Below are positions 2,868 through 39,763 of a stretch of DNA of 58,833 nucleotides, piece after piece. Origin of the DNA: Candidatus Gastranaerophilales bacterium (lineage in GTDB: Bacteria > Cyanobacteriota > Vampirovibrionia > Gastranaerophilales > Gastranaerophilaceae); the NCBI GenBank assembly GCA_944324285.1, contig CALUVR010000013.1:1-58833 (forward strand). Reading direction: 5' to 3'. The notes under the pieces are model-generated. The model did not search any database and was not told the origin of the DNA. It worked only from the letters and a program-made list of their open reading frames with translations. Both the position numbers and the translations under genes were made by a program. Numbering within the stretch: position 1 is the stretch's first letter; every line of letters starts with the position of its first letter.

Positions 2868-5216
2868 ATGCTCGTAGGAAAAGCACAACAATTTAACATA
2901 CGACCGATTAAAAAAGAAAAGGTCATGTTATCTCCAAATCAGGTGCCTTTATCTTCTCCGGAGCACATGTCACAATTTAATATTTCGGATATTGAGAGAC
3001 CTTTAAATCATAATTCACAGCAGTTATCATTTAAAGGTCTTTCTGTATCCAGAGCTTTAAACAAAGTTCTGTATAAACCGGGTACTAAAACTTATCAGTT
3101 ATCTAATCTTACATCAATTACTGATGAGCACCTCGGTGAGATGGTTAACAATCTTGTTGCCCACCTTAAAAAATCAAAACATGCTGAAAAACTTATTAAT
3201 TTTAACGGTGATGATGTTATCGTTAATATTAAAACCATCCCTCATCATATCTGGGATGGTTTAATTTATCCTTTTAAAATATTGCCTTTTGATATTTTGA
3301 ACGGCACTGTTGAAATGCTCGGTAAAATTAAACCGCTGGAAAAATGGTCAAAGAATGTTCTTTCAAAACCGTTCTTTAAAAATATCAGACAGCGTTCGAA
3401 AATAGATTCCGAAGTTAGTGCTTTAAAAGGACTTCTTGAAACAGCAGATTCTCTTAAAGGAAAGTCAAAAGATGAAATTTCATCAACCTTATTCCAGAAA
3501 TCCGTTAAAATGTTTGACCCTAAAACAGGTAACTATGATACAAAACACGAAAGAGCACTTTGCCGTATAGTATCAGGTTTGCCGCCTGCTGTACTTCTTG
3601 CAACAGATGCTTATAACTTGTCAAGAATGATGGATGACGATCCGGCTGCGGCAAAACAGGAGAAAAAAGCAAGGTTCCGTCAAGAAATGAGTCGTCTTGT
3701 TATGAACGCATATTTAATGCTTGTAACATTCGGAGCATTGAATAAATATATTAACCAGTCTGCGTTCGGTACAATGTTAATGACCGGTGCAACGACACTA
3801 ATTACAGAAACTTACTCTCGTCTTAGAAACGGTAAACACATTACAAGATTGACTCCTGAAGAAGCACGGGCAGAAAATGAAAAAAATCAAGCGCCGGAAA
3901 GATTAATTAAACCTACAACGTCATTCGGTTCTGCAGAAAAAACTGCTCCTCAGCATAAAGAAACCCAGAAACCTCTGCTTTCGTTTGACACAATTATGAA
4001 GGCTTCAGCCGCAGTTATTGCTGCCGGATTTGCTGTGAAGGGCGCAAGAAAGGTTATCCCGAATTTAGACCATACCATAAAAGTTATAACTGCTCCTTTT
4101 AAAAACCAATATAATAAAATGACAACAATTGCAGACTTTAGAATTAAGGGCGAAACTTTTGACAATATTGTAAGAGTTCTTGAAGATAACAATTACACGG
4201 AACTTGCTCAGAAATATAAAGATATTGCTGCAATGACAAGAAATGCAGACGGAACTATCAGTCTTGGTTTGCGTGATAAAAAAGCAAAACCGGCAGTAGA
4301 TTTCTTTATTGCCCCGATAAGATTTGCATGGAATGCGGTAACCCTTCCATACAGACTTGTGGATAAGGCAATCAGCGGGATTATGAATAAGAAAGATCCG
4401 CTTAAAGGTGTTAAGGGGCTTGAAAGTTTTGCTAAAAATATTCAGACTCTGAAATCTGATGCATTGAAAAAAGGTTATACGGGAGATAAATTCCTTGATT
4501 ATGTAAAAGATAATGCGACGAAAATTAAAGATATCAAGGCTCTTTCTATGAGTATTGAAAAAATCGGGCATGAGGCAACCAAAAAAGGTTACACACCTGA
4601 GAAATTCCAAAAATTCGTAGAAGATAATATTATGAAATCTTTCAATACGGATACAATGTCATCCGTATCAAACGCAGATCTTGCAAACCTTGCAAAAACA
4701 GCATCAACCGCTGCAACAATATGGTTCCTGATGACAGATAACTACAATATGGTTATGCTCAAATCAAACGGTAATGATAAAGAAGGTGCTGAAACCAAAT
4801 TTAAAGAGAGATTTGTACAGGAATGTTCAAGACAATTCTACTCAATGCTGTTGATTGACTTGTTTAACAACACATTCAGCAAACAGTACCACGCATCGCT
4901 TCTCGGAATGAGCTGGATTACCTTAACGGATACAACAATCAGTGAAATTTTAACAAGAAAATCCGTAGGTATGACTGTTAAAGAACATACACGTGATGAA
5001 CTTCTTGCGATAGAAGATAGGCAGAATAAAGCAACCGGTGCATTGAAGAAATACTATAACTTTATGCAGAGATTAACGGGCAAGCGTTCTATAAAATCTT
5101 ATGAAGTCAAGGCAAAGAATGCAAATTCTGCTGCTGCAGCGGATGAACAGGTGAAGGTTCAGAAGGAACCTTCTATGCAGGGCAGCAGTGTTTTGAATAA
5201 GATGATTAAAGGGTAG
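2868..5216 (+). CDS. Large lineage-specific protein with an internal duplication
   Basis: A 782-residue protein I cannot assign. The N-terminus is polar and carries LSFKG at 53-57, a short motif also seen near the start of other proteins here. A domain is repeated: residues about 242-337 (TDAYN at 246-250, then an ArgPheArgGlnGlu segment, then a hydrophobic helix and TETYSRL) align with about 619-713 (TDNYN at 623-627, KFKERFVQECSRQF, a hydrophobic helix, DTTISEIL). A smaller repeat, KKGYTxxKFxxxVxDN, occurs at 534-549 and 572-587. Moderately hydrophobic helices near 242, 280-310, 380-392, 610-625 and 657-690 suggest membrane association. GGGAAGG at 2849-2855 could serve as a distant ribosome-binding site. 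Possibly exported or membrane-remodelling; unknown. Confidence 0.75.
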   Translation: MLVGKAQQFNIRPIKKEKVMLSPNQVPLSSPEHMSQFNISDIERPLNHNSQQLSFKGLSVSRALNKVLYKPGTKTYQLSNLTSITDEHLGEMVNNLVAHLKKSKHAEKLINFNGDDVIVNIKTIPHHIWDGLIYPFKILPFDILNGTVEMLGKIKPLEKWSKNVLSKPFFKNIRQRSKIDSEVSALKGLLETADSLKGKSKDEISSTLFQKSVKMFDPKTGNYDTKHERALCRIVSGLPPAVLLATDAYNLSRMMDDDPAAAKQEKKARFRQEMSRLVMNAYLMLVTFGALNKYINQSAFGTMLMTGATTLITETYSRLRNGKHITRLTPEEARAENEKNQAPERLIKPTTSFGSAEKTAPQHKETQKPLLSFDTIMKASAAVIAAGFAVKGARKVIPNLDHTIKVITAPFKNQYNKMTTIADFRIKGETFDNIVRVLEDNNYTELAQKYKDIAAMTRNADGTISLGLRDKKAKPAVDFFIAPIRFAWNAVTLPYRLVDKAISGIMNKKDPLKGVKGLESFAKNIQTLKSDALKKGYTGDKFLDYVKDNATKIKDIKALSMSIEKIGHEATKKGYTPEKFQKFVEDNIMKSFNTDTMSSVSNADLANLAKTASTAATIWFLMTDNYNMVMLKSNGNDKEGAETKFKERFVQECSRQFYSMLLIDLFNNTFSKQYHASLLGMSWITLTDTTISEILTRKSVGMTVKEHTRDELLAIEDRQNKATGALKKYYNFMQRLTGKRSIKSYEVKAKNANSAAAADEQVKVQKEPSMQGSSVLNKMIKG

Positions 5217-5598
5217 GTTGGGAAGAGAAGTTAATAAGATACGAAGGCACTAAGTAGGAATGACGTTAGGATGATAAGTGCAATAATGTCGGTTGGGCAT
5301 ACCAGCCCAACTAAGATGCTAAGTTCAATAAAAAGACGTTAGGACGATAGGACGTCAAGTGCAATCACGTGAAGAGGGGTGAGAGGTTCTTCAATCCCCA
5401 CACTTTCCAAAAAGGCTGGATTGCTTCGGCTAACGTCTTGCAATAACGTCACATCCCCTCTCCCCTTGAGGGAGAGGGGTAGGGAGAGTGGAAAAAGAGA
5501 AAACCCTCCGGCGCATTCGCGCCACCTCCCTTACAAGGGAGGCAAATTACACACCCTCGCCCCTTGTGAGAGAGGGAATAATGTCTAATTTTTAAAAG
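5217..5598. repeat. Cluster of REP-like intergenic inverted repeats
   Basis: No gene. It holds a GTTGGGC/GCCCAAC hairpin (5291-5311) and a block CCAAAAAGGCTGGATTGC...GCAATAACGTC at 5407-5450, which recurs at 46292-46333. A hairpin CCCTCTCCCCTTGAGGGAGAGGG lies near 5456-5478. A block of about 42 bp at 5502-5552 pairs CGGCGC with GCGCC and CTCCCTT with AAGGGAG, and recurs inverted at 46527-46566. The region is GC-richer than neighbouring genes, and any short reading frame in it follows the repeats. Confidence 0.75.
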
Positions 5599-6204
5599 TT
5601 ATCTTACTTTATTTTCTTCGCCCTTAATCAGTCTTTTAATGTTGCTTCTGTGGAGCCAGATGATATAGATTGCACCAAGAATACAGTACCCGATATATGC
5701 CAAAGGAGCTTTGCACCACCACATTAAAAACGGAGAAACCGCAAGCGCAATAATTGAACCCACTGAAACGTATTTTGTTGAATAAGTTATAACCGCCCAG
5801 ATTAAGGCTATCATCAATCCCACCTGCCAGTTGAGAGCAAGGATTGTTCCAACCCCTGATGCAACGGATTTTCCGCCCGTGAATTTAAGGAAAATAGATT
5901 TGCTGTGACCGAGGATTACTGCAACGGCTGCAACTACAGGCAAAAGTCCTATTCCTGTAAAGGTTGATGTAAACAATTGCGCAAGAATAACCGGCAGTGC
6001 ACCTTTAAATGCGTCAAGCAAAAGCGTTATGAAGAACCATTTTTTCCCCATAACTCTTTTTACGTTTGTTGCGCCGGTGGAGCCTGAACCTATTGTTCTT
6101 ATGTCCTGTCCTGTAAAAGCCTTAACAATAATATAACCGGTCGGGATAGAACCTATTAAATACGCTGTTATAAATACAATCAGTAATTCAAATATTTTTT
6201 CCAT
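5599..6204 (-). CDS. plsY: Glycerol-3-phosphate acyltransferase PlsY
   Basis: Transfers the acyl group from acyl-phosphate to glycerol-3-phosphate, the first acylation in phospholipid synthesis; an integral membrane enzyme. The family's conserved loops are present: GSIPTGY near residue 18, GSGSTGATNVKRV near 40-52, and GHSKSIFLKFTGGKSVASG near 98-116. About five hydrophobic helices and a basic tail (HRSNIKRLIKGEENK) complete the 201 residues, a normal length. The start at 6204 has a strong AAGGAGAG ribosome-binding site. It is convergent with the repeat cluster and divergent from the VWA gene. Confidence 0.95.
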   Translation of the reverse strand: MEKIFELLIVFITAYLIGSIPTGYIIVKAFTGQDIRTIGSGSTGATNVKRVMGKKWFFITLLLDAFKGALPVILAQLFTSTFTGIGLLPVVAAVAVILGHSKSIFLKFTGGKSVASGVGTILALNWQVGLMIALIWAVITYSTKYVSVGSIIALAVSPFLMWWCKAPLAYIGYCILGAIYIIWLHRSNIKRLIKGEENKVR

Positions 6205-6989: not shown

Positions 6990-8591
6990 ATGTCAATTGT
7001 TATTATATCTTCAAATCAGGAAAAAACTTTTGAGGATAAAGACCTTATAAATATAGGTTCGGATAAGAATTGTGATTTTGTTGTTGATACAGGTTATGAT
7101 GTCCTTTTGACGGTTCAGACTGATAAAATTACAGGAAAATGTTATGTAATAAACAATTTCCGTAATGAAAAAATCCTTTTCAAAGGGAAACCTTTACAAA
7201 AAATTGAGGTGACAAATGTGTGCAAAATCGTCTTTGCAGATACGACGGAATACCTTGGTATAAGACTTGTACAGCAGCCAAAGACTGTTTCTTCAATCGG
7301 CGGAGAAGATTTAAATGAAGATGATTTAAAAAATATTTACGGAAACGATTCCGGAACCATTACCAGAGTGAAGATTGAAAAGCAGCGTGAACCTATAGAA
7401 AATGCACGTGTAAGTATAATTAAACAGGTTGCGTATTCTATAAATGAACTGCGGCAAAAATTATCGGCAAATGCTAAAACAAGTATATTCCTGCATATTG
7501 CACTTCTCGGTTGTGCGATTATTAATGCCTTTGCAGTGTCAAATTATCTGATGGGATTGACTGTCAAAGAGGCTGAAAAATATTTGTATCTTCCGACTAA
7601 TATTAAGGTTTGGGTTATTTATACTCTAATAATTTTTGCGATATGTTTAATGTTAAAGCAGGGCGTGTGCTTATATTTGCAGAATAATGTCGTAAAAGAG
7701 AATATTAAAACATCACGAATTGCGCAGAATTTTATGTTATGGCTTTCTACAATATTTTTGCTTGGAATTTATGCGGTAAACCTTGTATATTTTATGAACG
7801 TGAATAATTTTATGTCTTTTGCTGTATTTATATCGCTTTTCTTTACCGGAATTATGACAACGGTCGCAATTGCCTGCGGGTATTTCACCTGCAACAGTTC
7901 GGAATGGCAGGCGGCTTTGAATAAACTTGAATTCAGAGAAGATTTTGAGGCTGTTATAAAAGCATACAGAGTATGGATAGATAGATACATTAACAGTTTA
8001 AGTTCAACTAAAATCCGTAACATTAAAGACAGACAGTTTACGCTGCAGTTGAAATCAATAGGAGAAGTCGTTCTGGGTATTTTAACCGCACCGTTCCTTG
8101 CCTACGGGGTATCAAATACTCTTGCGATGTGCTTTCCGGAAGCCGCAGGATGGGTAAGAATTTCAGGACTTCGATTTAGCCCGATATTTCTTGTTCTTGC
8201 AACATTTTTAATTATATTTGCATTTTTTTCTTTTGTTGCGGCATTTACTGCGTCAAAGAAAATTCAGGGGTCTGAAGTTATAAAGCAGGATGGATTTAGT
8301 GACTACAGACAACACGGCGTGAATATTTTCGGGCTTGAAGGGGTTAAAAAACTCAGAGCCGATAACAGAAGATATTTGTGGATTGCACTTTGTATAATCT
8401 TTATTGAATTTACAATGAATGTTTCATATTTCATGACAGAAATCGGCGGAGATTTCAAGGGGCTTGCTTTGAGTTTTATAGCTGCGCTTGTTCCGACTGC
8501 ATTGTTACTTGCGGAAACCGTGTTGCTTAGTCAGACAAACTTTGACATTTATGCATGCGATGAATTGATTGCTAAAATTGATAAAGATTAA
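6990..8591 (+). CDS. FHA-like domain protein with about eight membrane helices
   Basis: Residues 3-93 look like a small beta-sandwich with an FHA-style strand and loop (NIGSDKNCDFVV, 21-32); FHA domains read phosphothreonine, but the rest of the signature is weak. A linker to residue 160 is followed by hydrophobic helices at about 168-188, 207-227, 248-268, 275-298, 358-382, 395-425, 465-483 and 495-520. It sits between the VWA gene and a TonB-C-like gene with gaps of 12 and 2 bp, so it is almost certainly in the same operon. No transporter or enzyme signature was recognised in the membrane part. Function unknown. Confidence 0.75.
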   Translation: MSIVIISSNQEKTFEDKDLINIGSDKNCDFVVDTGYDVLLTVQTDKITGKCYVINNFRNEKILFKGKPLQKIEVTNVCKIVFADTTEYLGIRLVQQPKTVSSIGGEDLNEDDLKNIYGNDSGTITRVKIEKQREPIENARVSIIKQVAYSINELRQKLSANAKTSIFLHIALLGCAIINAFAVSNYLMGLTVKEAEKYLYLPTNIKVWVIYTLIIFAICLMLKQGVCLYLQNNVVKENIKTSRIAQNFMLWLSTIFLLGIYAVNLVYFMNVNNFMSFAVFISLFFTGIMTTVAIACGYFTCNSSEWQAALNKLEFREDFEAVIKAYRVWIDRYINSLSSTKIRNIKDRQFTLQLKSIGEVVLGILTAPFLAYGVSNTLAMCFPEAAGWVRISGLRFSPIFLVLATFLIIFAFFSFVAAFTASKKIQGSEVIKQDGFSDYRQHGVNIFGLEGVKKLRADNRRYLWIALCIIFIEFTMNVSYFMTEIGGDFKGLALSFIAALVPTALLLAETVLLSQTNFDIYACDELIAKIDKD

Positions 8592-8593
8592 TT

Positions 8594-9385
8594 ATGAAAT
8601 TTTTAAAAATATTTTTGACAATTTCAATAATTCTTTTGACTGTAGTAATAGGTTTATCTTCTCCTAAGCTGCATAAAACTTTTGTTATAAAAGGTTCTGA
8701 TTTCAGACTAGAAAGATACAGTGAAAAACTTTCTCAAAAAGAGTTAAAACTGCTTTCGCAAAAACCGAAGAGAGTGCCGCGTCCTGTCAAGATTGATCCG
8801 TCAGCATTTTTAACAGACAAAAAGATGCTTGTAAATCAGGCAGGTTTTTCGTCGGAAGAAAAAATAACAGTTAATCCGGTAAACAATTCATCTCAGGAAA
8901 AATATATAGTTAACAAAACGACTCCGCAGGAAACTGTAGTTTCGGAAATTCCAAAGGCAATTCAGGAGCCAATGGAAGAGTTTATTAGCGAAGTGCAAGA
9001 AGAAAAAGCTGCAGATAGAAAGTTGACGCGTCGTGAAGAACTTATTGCGTGGAATAAATGGCGTAGCGATATCATGAACGAGGTTATGATGACGTCTGGA
9101 GTTGACGCTCCGCTTGGGACAGCATTTTATTTTTCATTTAAAGTTGACAAATATACGAATATTTCAAAAATAAAAACATTTTGCACAAATCCGGTTTACA
9201 AAGACGAAAATCAAAAAATTGTTTCAGCAATAAAACGCCTTGGCAAAACAGAACTTTTGGATTTCCCGAAAGGATCAGTCAGAAATAGTACCACAATGCG
9301 CGGATTGTTTCTCATAGGTCTTGAAACAAATCTTGCGGAGCCGGGCGATTATAATGATTTAGAGAGGGTAAATGTTTATGAGTAG
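8594..9385 (+). CDS. Envelope protein with N-terminal anchor and TonB-C-like domain
   Basis: An uncleaved or cleaved hydrophobic N-terminus (residues 3-21) is followed by a Lys/Glu/Pro-rich linker to about residue 150. A C-terminal domain (about 150-250) follows, with the pattern FYFSFKVDKYTNISKIK, then NQKIVSAIKRLGKTELLDFPKG, resembling the TonB C-terminal fold (a strand pair, then a helix with a conserved pre-proline stretch). Such domains usually contact outer-membrane partners. Two more proteins in this window (9581 and 48582) end in similar domains, yet no ExbB, ExbD or receptor gene is present. It starts 2 bp after the FHA-like gene. Confidence 0.65.
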   Translation: MKFLKIFLTISIILLTVVIGLSSPKLHKTFVIKGSDFRLERYSEKLSQKELKLLSQKPKRVPRPVKIDPSAFLTDKKMLVNQAGFSSEEKITVNPVNNSSQEKYIVNKTTPQETVVSEIPKAIQEPMEEFISEVQEEKAADRKLTRREELIAWNKWRSDIMNEVMMTSGVDAPLGTAFYFSFKVDKYTNISKIKTFCTNPVYKDENQKIVSAIKRLGKTELLDFPKGSVRNSTTMRGLFLIGLETNLAEPGDYNDLERVNVYE

Positions 9386-9515
9386 AAATTCTTTAACAAT
9401 TTACGTATGTATAATAATAGCGGCGTTGTGTCTGGTGACCGTTGCCGCGGGTTTTACAAAACCGTCAATAAATAAGACTGTGGTTCTTCAAATCCAAAAG
9501 TTCGTTAAACAGTAA
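9378..9515 (+). CDS. Small single-pass membrane protein (45 residues)
   Basis: A short frame overlapping the end of the preceding gene by 8 bp. The ATG at 9378 lies nine bases after GAGAGGG (9362-9368); an in-frame ATG at 9372 is too close to that site. Residues 7-26 form a hydrophobic helix (TIYVCIIIAALCLVTVAAGF), followed by a basic tail ending in QIQKFVKQ. Overlap, good ribosome-binding site and clear helix support a real gene in the VWA/FHA/TonB-C operon. Function unknown, perhaps a small subunit of that complex. Confidence 0.6.
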   Translation: MSRNSLTIYVCIIIAALCLVTVAAGFTKPSINKTVVLQIQKFVKQ

Positions 9516-9580
9516 TACAAGAAATATAATTCATTTGAAAGAAGGATTACACCAAAATTGGTGGATTATACAATATTTCT

Positions 9581-10189
9581 ATGTTTAAGTGTACAGTTTG
9601 TCAAAAATTGCATAAAACAAAGGTAGATTACTGTGATTGCGGGAACGATGAATTTGTGGCAGTTGGTTCCGTCGCGGGCAGCGGGTTGTCTGTCACCCCT
9701 GAACAGGTGCTGTCGTGGGGGATTTTTGCAGTATGCATAGCGTTATCGGGCTGGATATGGTGTGGAGTTAACCCGCCGCAAAAAAATGTACAACAGAAAC
9801 CTCTTGAACCGAAAGCCACTGCTGTAGTGAGTAATATTCCGTCCATAGATGCTATCTGGGATGATTCTTTGCCTGATAGTGCAGTTGAGGTGCAAAGTCC
9901 TTTATCCGCGTATAAATCAAAGCTTGAAAATTCTCTGTATTCTAATCTTGAAACCCCTGATGTGATAGATGCCGGACGCTGCAGAATAGAATTTAAGGTA
10001 AATAAAAGCGGAAAATTAACGAACCGCCGTTTGATAAAGGAAGAGGGCGGAAATCTTTTTAATAACGAAGTTATAAGAATGATGAAAAATACGGCAAGGG
10101 TAGATGTGCCGCCAAATGGTTATGCCGGTGTAAAATTTACGGCGGATGTATTTACAGAAAACGGGGTTATAAAAGTAAAACTACGATAA
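9581..10189 (+). CDS. Zinc-ribbon, membrane helix and TonB-C-like domain protein
   Basis: The first 25 residues carry CTVC...CDCG, likely a small zinc-binding ribbon on the cytoplasmic side. A hydrophobic helix (about residues 43-62) is followed by a linker and a C-terminal TonB-like domain (about 125-202). The domain has the typical strand CRIEFKVNKSGKLTNRRL, the helix NNEVIRMMKNTARV, then VPPNGYAGVKFTADVF. This is a better match to energy-transducer TonB C-termini than the upstream protein. It is the last gene of the operon and is closed by a clear terminator. It may transmit a signal or force from the cytoplasm to the periplasm; that is inference. Confidence 0.75.
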   Translation: MFKCTVCQKLHKTKVDYCDCGNDEFVAVGSVAGSGLSVTPEQVLSWGIFAVCIALSGWIWCGVNPPQKNVQQKPLEPKATAVVSNIPSIDAIWDDSLPDSAVEVQSPLSAYKSKLENSLYSNLETPDVIDAGRCRIEFKVNKSGKLTNRRLIKEEGGNLFNNEVIRMMKNTARVDVPPNGYAGVKFTADVFTENGVIKVKLR

Positions 10190-10190
10190 A

Positions 10191-10217
10191 AAAGACGGGA
10201 GATAAGACCCGTCTTTT
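10191..10217. terminator. Bidirectional rho-independent terminator
   Basis: AAAGACGGG (10191-10199) pairs with CCCGTCTTT (10208-10216), with T-rich flank on one side and A-rich flank on the other. It serves the TonB-C-like gene on the plus strand and the small minus-strand gene ending at 10224. Confidence 0.85.
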
Positions 10218-10223
10218 AAATAT

Positions 10224-10397
10224 TTATAGTGAGGTTACGTTAAAGTCCCGCTCGGATTTTGCGGCAGAACTTTCAAAAAATACTTTGAAACACTTTTCGA
10301 AAAAGCTTTCCAGACCGTTAATTTCTGCTTTCAAAGCTTTAAAATCTTCTTCTCTTTTACTGTCTATAGACTGTTTTAATTCTTCATATTCGTACAT
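10224..10397 (-). CDS. Small coiled-coil protein (57 residues)
   Basis: Read on the minus strand from an ATG at 10397, with GGAG ten bases upstream, to a TAA at 10224-10226. The product is charged and helical (MYEYEELKQSIDSKREEDF at the start, then KALKAEINGLE with a heptad-like pattern), with a Phe-rich middle. It ends right at the shared terminator, as a real gene would. The overlapping plus-strand frame (10285-10533) has no ribosome-binding site and odd composition. No family recognised. Confidence 0.5.
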   Translation of the reverse strand: MYEYEELKQSIDSKREEDFKALKAEINGLESFFEKCFKVFFESSAAKSERDFNVTSL

Positions 10398-10559
10398 AAC
10401 TTTAATACTCCATATTACCTTCTCATTTTTCTATACGGAATATTTGATTGAAACTTTAGGGGGAAATGGAAAAGAATTTACAAAACTTTACGGCGTTGGA
10501 ATTTTATTCATTCCTTATTTAATGAAGGTGTGACAAAGTGACGGAGGGTTTAATCAAAT

Positions 10560-10757
10560 AAGTTGCCGGGTTGGATTTATTTTCTCAACACGCTCCCGCC
10601 CTGCTCCTGCTATCGTTTCGAAAACAAACCCAACCCCTTCTCTCCTATTCTGCTATCGGATTAACATACGTAAAATTCCCTCTCCCCTTGAGGGAGAGGG
10701 TGGCACGTAGTGCCGGGTGAGGGGTAAACGTTTCTGTAAAAATACGTCATTCCGGAA
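10560..10757. repeat. REP-like intergenic repeat
   Basis: No gene. The core at 10679-10702 is CCCTCTCCCCTTGAGGGAGAGG, an inverted repeat also found at 5456. It is followed by GGCACGTAGTGCCGGGTGAGGGG. Runs of CCCAACCC and CCCGCCC flank it. Confidence 0.6.
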
Positions 10758-10805
10758 GCTTAGAAAAACTGATTTAGGCGTCAGCTGAAATCAGTTTTTT
10801 CAAGC
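10758..10805. repeat. 48-bp inverted-repeat element, copy A
   Basis: GCTTAGAAAAACTGATTT and AAATCAGTTTTTTCAAGC form a near-perfect 18-bp inverted repeat around a 12-base centre. A diverged copy lies at 46681-46727. It is palindromic enough to fold as a hairpin; possibly a small non-autonomous element. Confidence 0.6.
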
Positions 10806-10880
10806 TATGCACAATCGCAGAAGCATGGAATGCCGCGGCAATACAAACCATGGTCGCAGCGCAGGTTGACGTAAGATGCA

Positions 10881-11324
10881 TTAAAAATTAGGCAGATATT
10901 TTTCGTCAACCTGAAACCCTTTTGAGTAATATTCCGAGCGGACGAATTTGCAAATCTCCGGGTTATGCATGTGTTTGCGCCAAATTATTTCAGTAGGATT
11001 ATCTTTTCCATATTTTTCAGGTTTAAGAAGGAGTGCATTATAAAGAGTGTTAACCTGTTCCCTTGAAAAATTACATGTTACGACAAGTTGTCCGTTTGCG
11101 GTTCCTGTGACCTGCTTATAGCCGCAGTAATTTCCGTTCCAGCCTTCAATTTGTTTGAAATCGTGAAAAACTGTTCCGTACATATTGAAGGTGAAGGGTT
11201 CTGAATAAACTTCGCAATTTTTGAATTTTTTTACAAATTTTCCGCTAAAACCGTTTTCCTGTGGTGCAGCAAGACAGCAGGAAGTGTGAAATATTAAAAT
11301 GCAGGATAGAATATATTTTAGCAT
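10881..11324 (-). CDS. Secreted protein of unknown function
   Basis: A 147-residue protein with a classical signal peptide (hydrophobic 5-18, likely cut after CLAA near residue 20). The mature part of about 125 residues is beta-rich, with four cysteines (including NCEVYSEP, GNYCGYKQV and EICKFVRSEYY) that could form disulfides in the periplasm. No catalytic pattern was recognised. Its neighbours on either side are unrelated, and it has no close partner. It lies divergent to the LysM-like gene. Confidence 0.7.
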   Translation of the reverse strand: MLKYILSCILIFHTSCCLAAPQENGFSGKFVKKFKNCEVYSEPFTFNMYGTVFHDFKQIEGWNGNYCGYKQVTGTANGQLVVTCNFSREQVNTLYNALLLKPEKYGKDNPTEIIWRKHMHNPEICKFVRSEYYSKGFQVDEKYLPNF

Positions 11325-11374
11325 AATATTATTATACTTTTTATATTTAATCTGGCAATTCTTTTAATCAATAT

Positions 11375-34756: not shown

Positions 34757-35875
34757 TTATTCAATTTTACTCAGAGTAACACAGTTGGAAAGGTTTGAAC
34801 AGAGAAGTTTTGTAATATTATCTGTGGTCTTTTTTAAGCCTGATTTCCCTAATGATACAACATCTTCCGCAGCGTCTTTGACGTACAAAATTTCGTCGTT
34901 TGATTTGGTGAAAGTTATTGTATCTCCGATATAAATCGACGCCATTGTGTTGTTGGTGCTGTTGTATGAAATTCCGAGAGGAACAACTTTTACAGAGTCC
35001 TTTGAGTCAAGAATATTTTTGATAATTTTTGACACCCCCGGCTGGAATTTTTCTTCCAGAGTTTTATCTTTGTAAATGGAATTGTTGCCTTCAGGGAATA
35101 TAAATAAATTGCATTTTTTGTGCAGAAATTTAGCGATTAAATATTTCATCGGAACTACATTGTCTTCGATTTTTTTATCAGTCATATAGGCGTCCACAGG
35201 TATTAATCCCATTTTTCTATAAATATTCCGCAATTTTTTATTAACTAATTTTATAAAATTCTGGCTTACAAGAATATTCGGACGCGGGCAGTCGTTTTGT
35301 TTGCCGTAGGCGGTGTATGCATAATTCAAAAATGAATTAAAAATCGGATAAATAAATTTATCTTTTTCAGGGTTGTCGTGGTTTAGTATAAAGATGTGAG
35401 AATCATTTGATTGTGCAATCTTTTCAATTTTTCCATCCTCAATATTCATATCAATAAATCTGTTATGGATGGAATTTCCCATCTTAGCCCATTCTTCGAT
35501 ATACTGTGGGGAATCAGGCGTCATTTTTTTTATAAGACTGAAAGAATTATAAAAAGATTTGAAATGTTCCAATACGAGAATTTTACTGGCAAATGAGCGG
35601 AGTTTATTTGCGGCATTAAAACTTTTTCTCAATAGTTTATTTTTAATTTCGGAATTATCGGGGTTACTCTGTGCTTTTCTTATGCGATTTTTAATTTTTA
35701 TAGAAAGTTCATCCAGCTTCTTTTTACTTTTGGGTTCTTTGTAAAAAAAATCCATGGGGCTTGCCGAATAAAGAATATCTGTTTTTTGCGGGAGGTTAAG
35801 GAGTCCTTTATCGGAGAGTTTGAGCCGCAGTCCGAAACTTATTGGTTGTTTTTTTTGATGAATATTCTGGAGCAT
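34757..35875 (-). CDS. PlsC-like acyltransferase domain protein
   Basis: 372 residues. The C-terminal two thirds resemble lysophosphatidate acyltransferases: NHDNPEKD in the place of the catalytic NHxxxxD box, RKMGLIPVDAYM near the second block, and LFIFPEGNNSIYKDKTLEEKFQPGVSKI matching FPEGTRS with its following Gly. The His-to-Asp spacing is five instead of four residues, so activity is uncertain. The N-terminal third is helical and basic, and QPISFGLRL at residues 11-19 fits the shared N-terminal motif. No membrane helix. First gene of a two-gene operon. Confidence 0.72.
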   Translation of the reverse strand: MLQNIHQKKQPISFGLRLKLSDKGLLNLPQKTDILYSASPMDFFYKEPKSKKKLDELSIKIKNRIRKAQSNPDNSEIKNKLLRKSFNAANKLRSFASKILVLEHFKSFYNSFSLIKKMTPDSPQYIEEWAKMGNSIHNRFIDMNIEDGKIEKIAQSNDSHIFILNHDNPEKDKFIYPIFNSFLNYAYTAYGKQNDCPRPNILVSQNFIKLVNKKLRNIYRKMGLIPVDAYMTDKKIEDNVVPMKYLIAKFLHKKCNLFIFPEGNNSIYKDKTLEEKFQPGVSKIIKNILDSKDSVKVVPLGISYNSTNNTMASIYIGDTITFTKSNDEILYVKDAAEDVVSLGKSGLKKTTDNITKLLCSNLSNCVTLSKIE

Positions 35876-36022: not shown

Positions 36023-36757
36023 GTGTCAACAATAACTAATGCTAATATCCACGGTATGTGGGGCGTTTACGCAGGATATAACGGTTCCCATCAGGCTTAT
36101 GACGGGATTAGTATCTACCAGAACGGCGGAACTTTAGGCGTTGTCGGCATGGCGTATAAAGGTAACTTCTTTACCGGATTAACAGCAAACTCAGGAGCGA
36201 GCGTCGGCGAAGCTCAGGCATCTTTCGGACAGGACAACTTTACCATGTTGATGGCAGGTATCGCTTCTAAATCAGGTTATAACTTTGAAATGGCTGACGG
36301 CAGATTGATTATCCAGCCGAACTTCATGATGTCGTATTCCTTTGTAAATACCTTTGATTATTACAACGCAGCAGGTATTTCCATAAGTTCGGATCCTCTG
36401 CATGCCATTCATTTGGAACCTGGGCTTAAAATTATCGGTAACCTTAAAAATGGCTGGCAGCCGTATGCAAGTGTCAGTATGATTTGGAATATTATGGACA
36501 ACACACAGTTTATGGCAAATCAGGTTGCACTCCCGGAACTAAGCGTAAAGCCGTACGTTAAATACGGCGTCGGTGTCAGAAAATCCTGGGGTGAAAGATT
36601 TACAGGTTTCTTCCAGACATATATAACTAATGGCGGCAGAAATGGTGTCGGTTTACAACTGGGATTAAGAATGATGCTTGGCAGAGGTAATTCAGGTATA
36701 ACTAATTCCGCTGGTTCAAAACCGGCTGTAAAAAAAGTTATTAAATCAATGAAATAG
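36023..36757 (+). CDS. Autotransporter-like outer membrane beta-barrel, probably a fragment
   Basis: About 244 residues of alternating strands typical of an outer-membrane barrel: GMWGVYAGYNGS, TGLTANSGASVGEA, LEPGLKIIGNLKNGWQPYASVSM and RFTGFFQTYITNGGRNGVGLQLGLRM. There is no signal peptide and no passenger. The GTG start at 36023 overlaps its own GGAG, and the next ATG (36056) also lacks a ribosome-binding site. A -35 TTGACT (35941) and TTTGAT suggest a promoter, but the gene reads like the C-terminal translocator domain of a larger protein that lost its 5' part. A basic tail KPAVKKVIKSMK follows the last strand, unusual for a barrel. Confidence 0.6.
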   Translation: MSTITNANIHGMWGVYAGYNGSHQAYDGISIYQNGGTLGVVGMAYKGNFFTGLTANSGASVGEAQASFGQDNFTMLMAGIASKSGYNFEMADGRLIIQPNFMMSYSFVNTFDYYNAAGISISSDPLHAIHLEPGLKIIGNLKNGWQPYASVSMIWNIMDNTQFMANQVALPELSVKPYVKYGVGVRKSWGERFTGFFQTYITNGGRNGVGLQLGLRMMLGRGNSGITNSAGSKPAVKKVIKSMK

Positions 36758-36967
36758 ATTTAAAGCTGTCACCTCTGAATTTGTTTCTGCGGCTGATGTC
36801 TTAAGAAGTTCCGGTCTTTCCTATTGATAATTTTTCGAATATTTTTTATAATTCAATGTACGATTGTGCAGCTTGTTAAACAAAAGTAAACAAGTTGAAG
36901 AGCCTCTTTCCGGTTGCGCTGAGGCGGCAGAAATCGGTAGTTGCAGATTAAAAAGGAGATTATATTG

Positions 36968-38059
36968 ATGCCGGATTTAATCTATAATTCAATGCATTTA
37001 GAAACAATAAAAAAACAGCTTTCAGAAACGGATGAATTTACTATAATGTCCCCTTTTCTAGCTACGCTAAGTGGATTAAACCTTGAAGATTATAAGTTAA
37101 ATTTAAAATTGATTACGCAGATAGCGGAAGATTATAGTGAACCTATTAATGCCCAGAGATTTTTATTTATAAAATATTTAGCGGATAAGTTTTCACAACA
37201 GAATAGAAGGTTCAATTTGTATAATGTATCAAACCTGCATTCAAAAATATATTTATTTAAAAAAAACGGAATACCTGAGTCTGCGATTGTAACGTCCGCG
37301 AACTTTACGGACGCGGGTATTGGAGGTGTAAACGAAGAATGCGGCGTGTTTATAACGGATGATGAAACCTTACGTAATCTTGATATTTATATAAATGGTT
37401 TCTCAGAAAAAGAAGTTAATCTTGATGATTTGCGGCAAAAGATTGCTAAAGCGGAAACTGCACTTAAAGAAATTACAAGGGGGGCAGGAACGGCAAAAAG
37501 AAATTCTAAAACAATAAAGCCGGAATTTGTTAAAAATAATTTACTACAAGATTTAATTTCAAATATTGCAAATAAAACAAATAAGGTATGGTTGAAACCT
37601 CTTTATACAACAGATATGATTACACAAAAAAACGAACAGGAATTGATTAATCTGAAAGAATCGCGAAAGTGTGATACGGTATGCCATTTCAGAAATGAGC
37701 CTTATGAAATACAAGTAGGAGATATTTTAATATGTTATATAGTAAGAGTAAGGCAAGTCCTTTTTGTGAGAAGGGTTACGAGTAATCCGTCTAAAACAGC
37801 TCCAGACTGGCAGTGGCCGTGGAGTGTTAATATTGAACCTATTGACGCTATAAAAGATTTGGAAGCAACAGATAAATACAAAATAGATGATTTTTTGCCA
37901 GATTTTTTTAGTAAATATCCAAACGGGTATGTAGATTTTTATAAGAATAGAAATTTTAAACAGCTAAGACGTCAGGATAAGTTAAAATTAACCACAGAAT
38001 TCGGAATTTCCGCGTTGGAAAGTTATATAAATCATACAAATTCTCAAGCCTACCTGTAA
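36968..38059 (+). CDS. PLD-type nuclease domain fused to an EVE/PUA-like domain
   Basis: 363 residues, starting at ATG 36968 with AAAAAGGAG nine bases upstream (upstream in-frame TTGs precede that site). Residues 88-118 hold one phospholipase-D-like site: His91-Ser-Lys93 (LHSKIYLFKK) and TSANFTDAG (109-117), then EECGVF. Residues about 206-293 (VWLKPLYTT, VGDILICYIVRVRQVLFVRRV, WPWSVNIEPI) resemble EVE/PUA-like domains, which bind modified bases. Nucleases with such readers act in modification-dependent restriction. There is no methylase beside it. The PLD part is clear; the EVE part is moderate; the defence role is inference. Confidence 0.7.
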   Translation: MPDLIYNSMHLETIKKQLSETDEFTIMSPFLATLSGLNLEDYKLNLKLITQIAEDYSEPINAQRFLFIKYLADKFSQQNRRFNLYNVSNLHSKIYLFKKNGIPESAIVTSANFTDAGIGGVNEECGVFITDDETLRNLDIYINGFSEKEVNLDDLRQKIAKAETALKEITRGAGTAKRNSKTIKPEFVKNNLLQDLISNIANKTNKVWLKPLYTTDMITQKNEQELINLKESRKCDTVCHFRNEPYEIQVGDILICYIVRVRQVLFVRRVTSNPSKTAPDWQWPWSVNIEPIDAIKDLEATDKYKIDDFLPDFFSKYPNGYVDFYKNRNFKQLRRQDKLKLTTEFGISALESYINHTNSQAYL

Positions 38060-39688: not shown

Positions 39689-39763
39689 TGGCTGGGGCGG
39701 AAGGATTCGAACCTCCGAATGGCTGGACCAAAACCAGCTGCCTTACCGCTTGGCGACGCCCCA
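39689..39763 (-). tRNA. tRNA-Gln (anticodon UUG)
   Basis: The minus strand reads TGGGGCGTCGCCAAGCGG at the 5' end. The acceptor stem TGGGGCG/CGCCCCA, D-arm, anticodon stem GCTGG/CCAGC with loop TTTTGGT (anticodon TTG), and T-arm with GGTTCGAATCC all fold. CCA is encoded. Start TGGGGYRTCGCCAAGYGG is typical of bacterial tRNA-Gln. A promoter of TTGACA (39806-39811) and TAAAAT (39784-39789), minus strand with 16-bp spacing, lies upstream. Confidence 0.97.

Follow-up and report, generated by a model that had tools for sequence, protein, structure and literature searches.

A solitary PLD-EVE fusion gene in a Gastranaerophilales genome is predicted to encode a modification-dependent restriction endonuclease

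The window (the whole stretch of 58,833 nucleotides analyzed here) carries a gene in which a PLD-type nuclease domain is followed by a predicted EVE/YTH-type PUA domain, and we put at about 70% the probability that the product of this PLD-EVE gene is a restriction endonuclease of the modification-dependent (type IV-like) kind that works as a single-gene system. The observations supporting this reading are the presence of the two folds, the conservation of the catalytic residues and the EVE motifs, the absence of an adjacent methyltransferase, the rarity and patchy distribution of the gene, and the defense islands in which its relatives are found. The proposal of a modification-dependent (type IV) nuclease, made in an earlier note on this DNA, is well supported as far as the architecture is concerned, the activity itself being a prediction. 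Dimerization, base flipping, the use of DNA as the substrate, its cleavage, and the restriction of phages are what we infer about the mode of action. The features of the gene and its surroundings are listed in Table 1.

Table 1. Features of the PLD-EVE gene and its flanks; positions are those of the window.
Feature	Positions	Strand	Remarks
PLD-EVE fusion gene	36968-38059	+	ATG 36968, stop 38059; 363 aa; predicted modification-dependent endonuclease
PLD (NgoFVII/BfiI-type) nuclease domain	36968-37420	+	residues 1-151 (about); H91, K93, N112, E124
Helical linker	37421-37573	+	residues 152-202; AF2 helices H152-171 and H191-201
EVE/YTH-type PUA domain (predicted)	37574-38047	+	residues 203-360; from fold matches and alignment
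Shine-Dalgarno-like sequence AAAAAGGAG	36950-36958	+	~9 nt upstream of ATG 36968 (from the sequence)
Promoter-like TTGATA-N17-TATAAT	36824-36852	+	consensus match only; such matches are frequent by chance
Flank: truncated autotransporter-like C-terminal barrel	36023-36757	+	closest relative lies within a 1228-aa frame of genome G005 (90% identity); not part of the system
Flank: tRNA-Gln	39689-39763	-	borders on the right the variable slot in which the PLD-EVE gene lies
Flank: acyltransferase-like gene	34757-35875		no Pfam match; named from reading the sequence; left end of the variable segment

The frame of the PLD-EVE gene is open and intact, with the same start and stop as in the earlier note, and the gene is present in a single copy in the 2.03-Mb host genome. 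No RNA structure was detected 5' of the start codon (z -0.12). The G+C content of the gene is 0.32, that of the window being 0.376; since the neighboring conserved acyltransferase-like gene is equally low (0.33), the composition provides no argument for a recent transfer.

The N-terminal half of the protein matches the Pfam family PF09565 (RE_NgoFVII) with an E value of 1.5e-11 and 44.3 bits, the cut-off being 23.8. It contains a single HxK motif (HSK, residues 91-93) followed by TSANFT (residues 109-114), which includes N112, and by E124: H91, K93, T109-N112, and E124 are invariant in all nine of the family proteins aligned. The single HxK...N site of the PLD type previously read in this protein is therefore confirmed. 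Residues 1-159 of the model of the window protein resemble the PLD structures of NucT (Z 13.8), the modification-dependent enzyme SauUSI (Z 13.2), and R.NgoAVII (Z 12.1), as well as that of Nuc. When the family profile was searched by sequence against the solved structures, a weak match (E 0.12) was obtained with the restriction endonuclease 2c1l, which we take to be BfiI. The identification of the protein as DrmC of the DISARM system was rejected, the score being 20.6 bits as compared with an NCBIfam cut-off of 133, and no DISARM genes were recognized around the gene; the matches with DrmC, DpdK, and ZacB (PADLOC/NCBIfam) are weak and involve only the PLD domain.

In the case of the C-terminal half, Pfam gave no match with the last 160 or so residues of the window protein or with eight C-terminal domains of the family, apart from one chance hit (E 0.1). 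The EVE family PF01878 was found neither in the window protein, nor in these eight domains, nor in a scan of the host genome, and a sequence search of the solved structures with the EVE part yielded nothing meaningful. The fold was considered in two models, that of the window protein (AF2, seven aligned sequences, mean pLDDT 64) and that of the isolated C-terminal domain of a Gordonibacillus relative belonging to the Bacillota (eight sequences, pLDDT 91, pTM 0.88), which agree on the C-terminal fold. Residues 201-363 of the former match YTH and EVE structures with Z values of 9.8-10.8. The VIA-align matches of the Gordonibacillus domain are led by PH1033 (Z 12.4) and MJECL36 (Z 11.6), two archaeal proteins of the EVE type, and include YTHDC2 with m6A DNA (Z 11.3), a protein of L. 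major (Z 11.1), and THYN1 (Z 10.2). In Foldseek, THYN1 with 5mC DNA comes first (E 1.6e-4), and the restriction enzyme VcaM4I, an EVE-HNH protein (E 1.3e-3, probability 1.00), is among the matches, as is 2eve. The strands of this domain in the pLDDT 91 model occupy residues 6-11, 28-33, 46-51, 56-63, and 78-84, with a sixth strand downstream (131-133) and a final helix. VcaM4I was classed as an EVE protein on the basis of a core of five strands followed downstream by a sixth (PMC7897488), and the strand order of the Gordonibacillus domain shows this five-strand core with the extra downstream strand of the EVE/PUA fold.

Based on these models, residues 203-360 are predicted with high confidence to fold as an EVE/YTH-type PUA domain; the EVE-like domain proposed earlier thus has an EVE/YTH fold, and not an unrelated one, in both models. 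EVE and YTH structures are hardly separable by their Z values, so that the base read may carry either a C- or an A-modification. It is doubtful, although conceivable, that the C-terminal domain might form a separate, unprofiled branch intermediate between EVE and YTH, reading a base new to PLD restriction enzymes, and that the family might consist of ATP- and metal-independent PLD enzymes directed against hypermodified phage DNA.

The reader half shows its own set of invariant residues in the nine aligned proteins: KP (210-211), HF (240-241), GDI (251-253), ICY (255-257), WPW (283-285), and DK (337-338). The WPW and GDILxCY patterns on which the EVE reading was originally based are therefore present (the latter as GDILICY, 251-257) and almost invariant in the family, whereas the VLFVRRV stretch put forward with them exists but is the divergent version, in the window protein, of the strand that reads KLLGYFEV in the family. 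It counts against the EVE reading that no sequence profile recognized the domain and that a profile-profile comparison with 24 true EVE proteins was weak in terms of probability (4.8%), with a score of 22.0 as compared with a maximum of 18.3 in 40 column-shuffled controls. The weak alignment obtained is in the expected register, and Y257, an invariant residue, falls in it on the tyrosine that EVE proteins conserve in their FYH motif.

By analogy with VcaM4I (PMC7897488), the C-terminal EVE domain may flip a modified base (5mC/5hmC-like or of another kind) out of the invading DNA and hold it in a pocket, while the N-terminal PLD domain, if it resembles those of BfiI and R.NgoAVII (PMC4267653), would work as a dimer sharing one metal-independent HxK active site. 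This dimer would cut the DNA near the modified base, without any metal, and invading phage DNA carrying modified bases would be destroyed. Another reading, which we regard as unlikely, is that the nuclease has modified RNA as its target, be it tRNA or phage mRNA, and perhaps acts as an effector of abortive infection; in this case the EVE/YTH domain would read modified RNA and the PLD domain would cut RNA or nick nucleic acids. The YTH structures matched are mostly m6A-RNA readers, the PLD structures matched by the window model include Zucchini and PLD3, which act on RNA or single-stranded DNA, and several neighbors of the relatives (Thoeris, SIR2) are abortive systems; but PF09565 is a family of DNA restriction endonucleases, and the evidence available so far on fused EVE-nuclease proteins favors DNA (PMC7897488).

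The relatives of the window protein are rare, and all the full ones found belong to the Bacillota. With the window protein as the query, a single distant relative was obtained, on a plasmid of Priestia megaterium (27% identity over 77%); a two-sequence alignment of these proteins yielded seven more in Bacillota genomes, and a set of 398 genomes around one Bacillota relative contained two more, the gene being carried by 3 of the 398. The window protein alone gave no match in genome contigs, viral contigs, or phages, nor did the family alignments in viral contigs, and there is thus no sign of phage carriage. The eight other aligned proteins show 23-27% identity to the window protein, and since both halves are constrained together, the fusion is an old unit and not a chance join in the host genome. 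Among 382 genomes of the host's class, there is one full copy, and nothing else of the family was found but a C-terminal remnant of 47 aa with 55% identity in a congener, genome G011 (L005, 6816-7006, - strand). This remnant, squeezed at a locus other than that of the window between a tRNA-Ala and a DUF1848-like gene, is a case of gene decay. The PLD-EVE gene is rare, patchy, and decaying, like acquired defense genes. A weak match was also observed in genome G026 (L003), with 28% identity over the PLD part and four stops.

As in type IV systems, the locus carries no cognate methyltransferase, and none was found next to the PLD-EVE gene in the window. The only 5mC methyltransferase gene (PF00145) of the host lies on another contig (C19, from 41753 to the contig end; L104), where it is apparently cut off by the end of the contig. 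The presence of this gene makes cutting at every 5mC unlikely: an enzyme of this kind would be self-toxic in the host, and also beside the dcm-type gene that accompanies the relative on the Priestia plasmid, unless the sequence contexts differed. The protein might also be a type II-like, sequence-specific PLD enzyme of the BfiI kind, the PUA-like domain reading a sequence as the B3 domain of BfiI does and the methyltransferase being encoded elsewhere. The PLD family and the order of the domains (nuclease, then DNA-binding domain) are indeed those of BfiI and R.NgoAVII, and in addition to the host gene on the other contig, the dcm-type gene of the Priestia plasmid (L004) is located a few genes from its PLD-EVE gene. 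This reading is nevertheless very unlikely, given that the second domain matches EVE and YTH structures by its fold and that no methyltransferase adjoins either the window gene or, among the profiled neighbors, those of the relatives. The fold matches listed for the C-terminal domain are EVE and YTH structures, with no B3 domain among them, although such a listing would not by itself exclude one.

The loci of the relatives are mostly defense islands or lie beside recombinases. In Cytobacillus (L007), the Thoeris genes thsA (E 8e-189) and thsB (E 5e-68) adjoin the gene, and a GmrSD_N protein is also encoded there; the other loci carry SIR2 and several helicases (L011), an AriA/AriB-like pair (L013), or an AAA helicase, an ATPase, and an HNH protein (L102), and the helicases around the relatives include DEAD and UvrD types. 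The near-identical loci of Metabacillus and Oceanobacillus (L009 and L010, 4747-6949) carry two serine recombinases and a D5-like gene. An exception is L008, where no clear defense gene adjoins. The rlmH gene near the PLD-EVE gene in Cytobacillus (L007, 2081-2560) and the recombinases of L009 and L010 give these loci the appearance of SCC-type, defense-carrying elements outside the staphylococci. On the Priestia plasmid, an HNH protein with a weak match to a Pua-like domain, possibly a second modification-dependent nuclease, is encoded divergently beside the PLD-EVE gene (4607-5605, - strand), and an SbcD/SbcC-like pair, the ATPase of which is weakly similar to LmuB, occurs directly downstream (7054-11367).

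The helicase and ATPase neighbors at L011, L102, and L004 might mean that the protein serves as an accessory nuclease in a system of several genes, the window copy being an orphan left by decay. Both R.NgoAVII and R.CglI depend on their ATPase for cutting (PMC4267653), and the copy in G011 has decayed. We consider this distinctly improbable, however, since the neighbors differ from one locus to another and the window frame and its active site are intact although the gene is solitary. No partner occurs at a fixed position across the loci examined (apart from the near-identity of L009 and L010), which argues for a single-gene system.

Numerous EVE-PLDc nuclease fusions, with a predicted role in modification-dependent restriction, have been described previously by Bell et al. 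2020 (PMC7641849), who noted that many EVE domains of defense proteins are detectable only by sensitive methods. The two domains and the proposed role are those of the present protein, so that the architecture is not new and the window protein is a divergent example; no paper testing an EVE-PLDc fusion experimentally was found in the open-access literature. In VcaM4I (PMC7897488, PDB 6yex), an EVE-type base reader is likewise joined to a nuclease, but this nuclease is a metal-dependent HNH and the EVE domain is N-terminal; the pocket residues P24, W82, and Y130 are not all traceable in the window protein. BfiI, R.NgoAVII, and R.CglI share the PLD family, the single HxK site, and the order of nuclease and reader, whereas their second domain is a B3 domain reading a sequence and that of the window protein is of the EVE/YTH type. 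Aba4572I and CbaI (PLD-wH; PMC11037411) combine a PLD nuclease and a modified-base reader in one chain, their reader being, in contrast, a winged helix for 6mA with an unrelated fold. SauUSI (PDB 7clg, PMC7913695) is also a PLD-type restriction enzyme, but it is ATP-dependent, and the window protein has no ATPase domain. The reader-domain branch being invisible to the current Pfam profiles, routine defense annotation will miss it. Since the subfamily consists of one short gene, apparently without any ATP or metal requirements, it may provide an easy test case for the coupling between a PLD nuclease and a base reader, and possibly a tool enzyme, resistant to EDTA, with which modified DNA could be mapped.

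In the window, the PLD-EVE gene is solitary: it is preceded by the truncated autotransporter-like barrel and followed by small genes that have no Pfam match. The earlier statement on its isolated position beside a fragment of a barrel was correct, the fragment being a C-terminal barrel. As regards its being a candidate defense gene, the window provides no defense neighbors, whereas the context around the relatives is strongly defensive. The attempt to delimit a mobile element around the gene yielded only short, low-identity pairs of repeats, tandem or att-like, and no copy of the tRNA-Gln 3' end; no element ends were found, and there is no recognizable integrated element. The segment between the acyltransferase-like gene and the tRNA-Gln is nevertheless variable: genome G011 keeps both flanks (84-94% identity) and carries other genes between them, namely an acetyltransferase-like gene and small ORFs. 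The barrel family occurs in many copies across the genus, several of which have a stop inside the matched stretch, and this suggests that the turnover of adhesins in the genus is fast.
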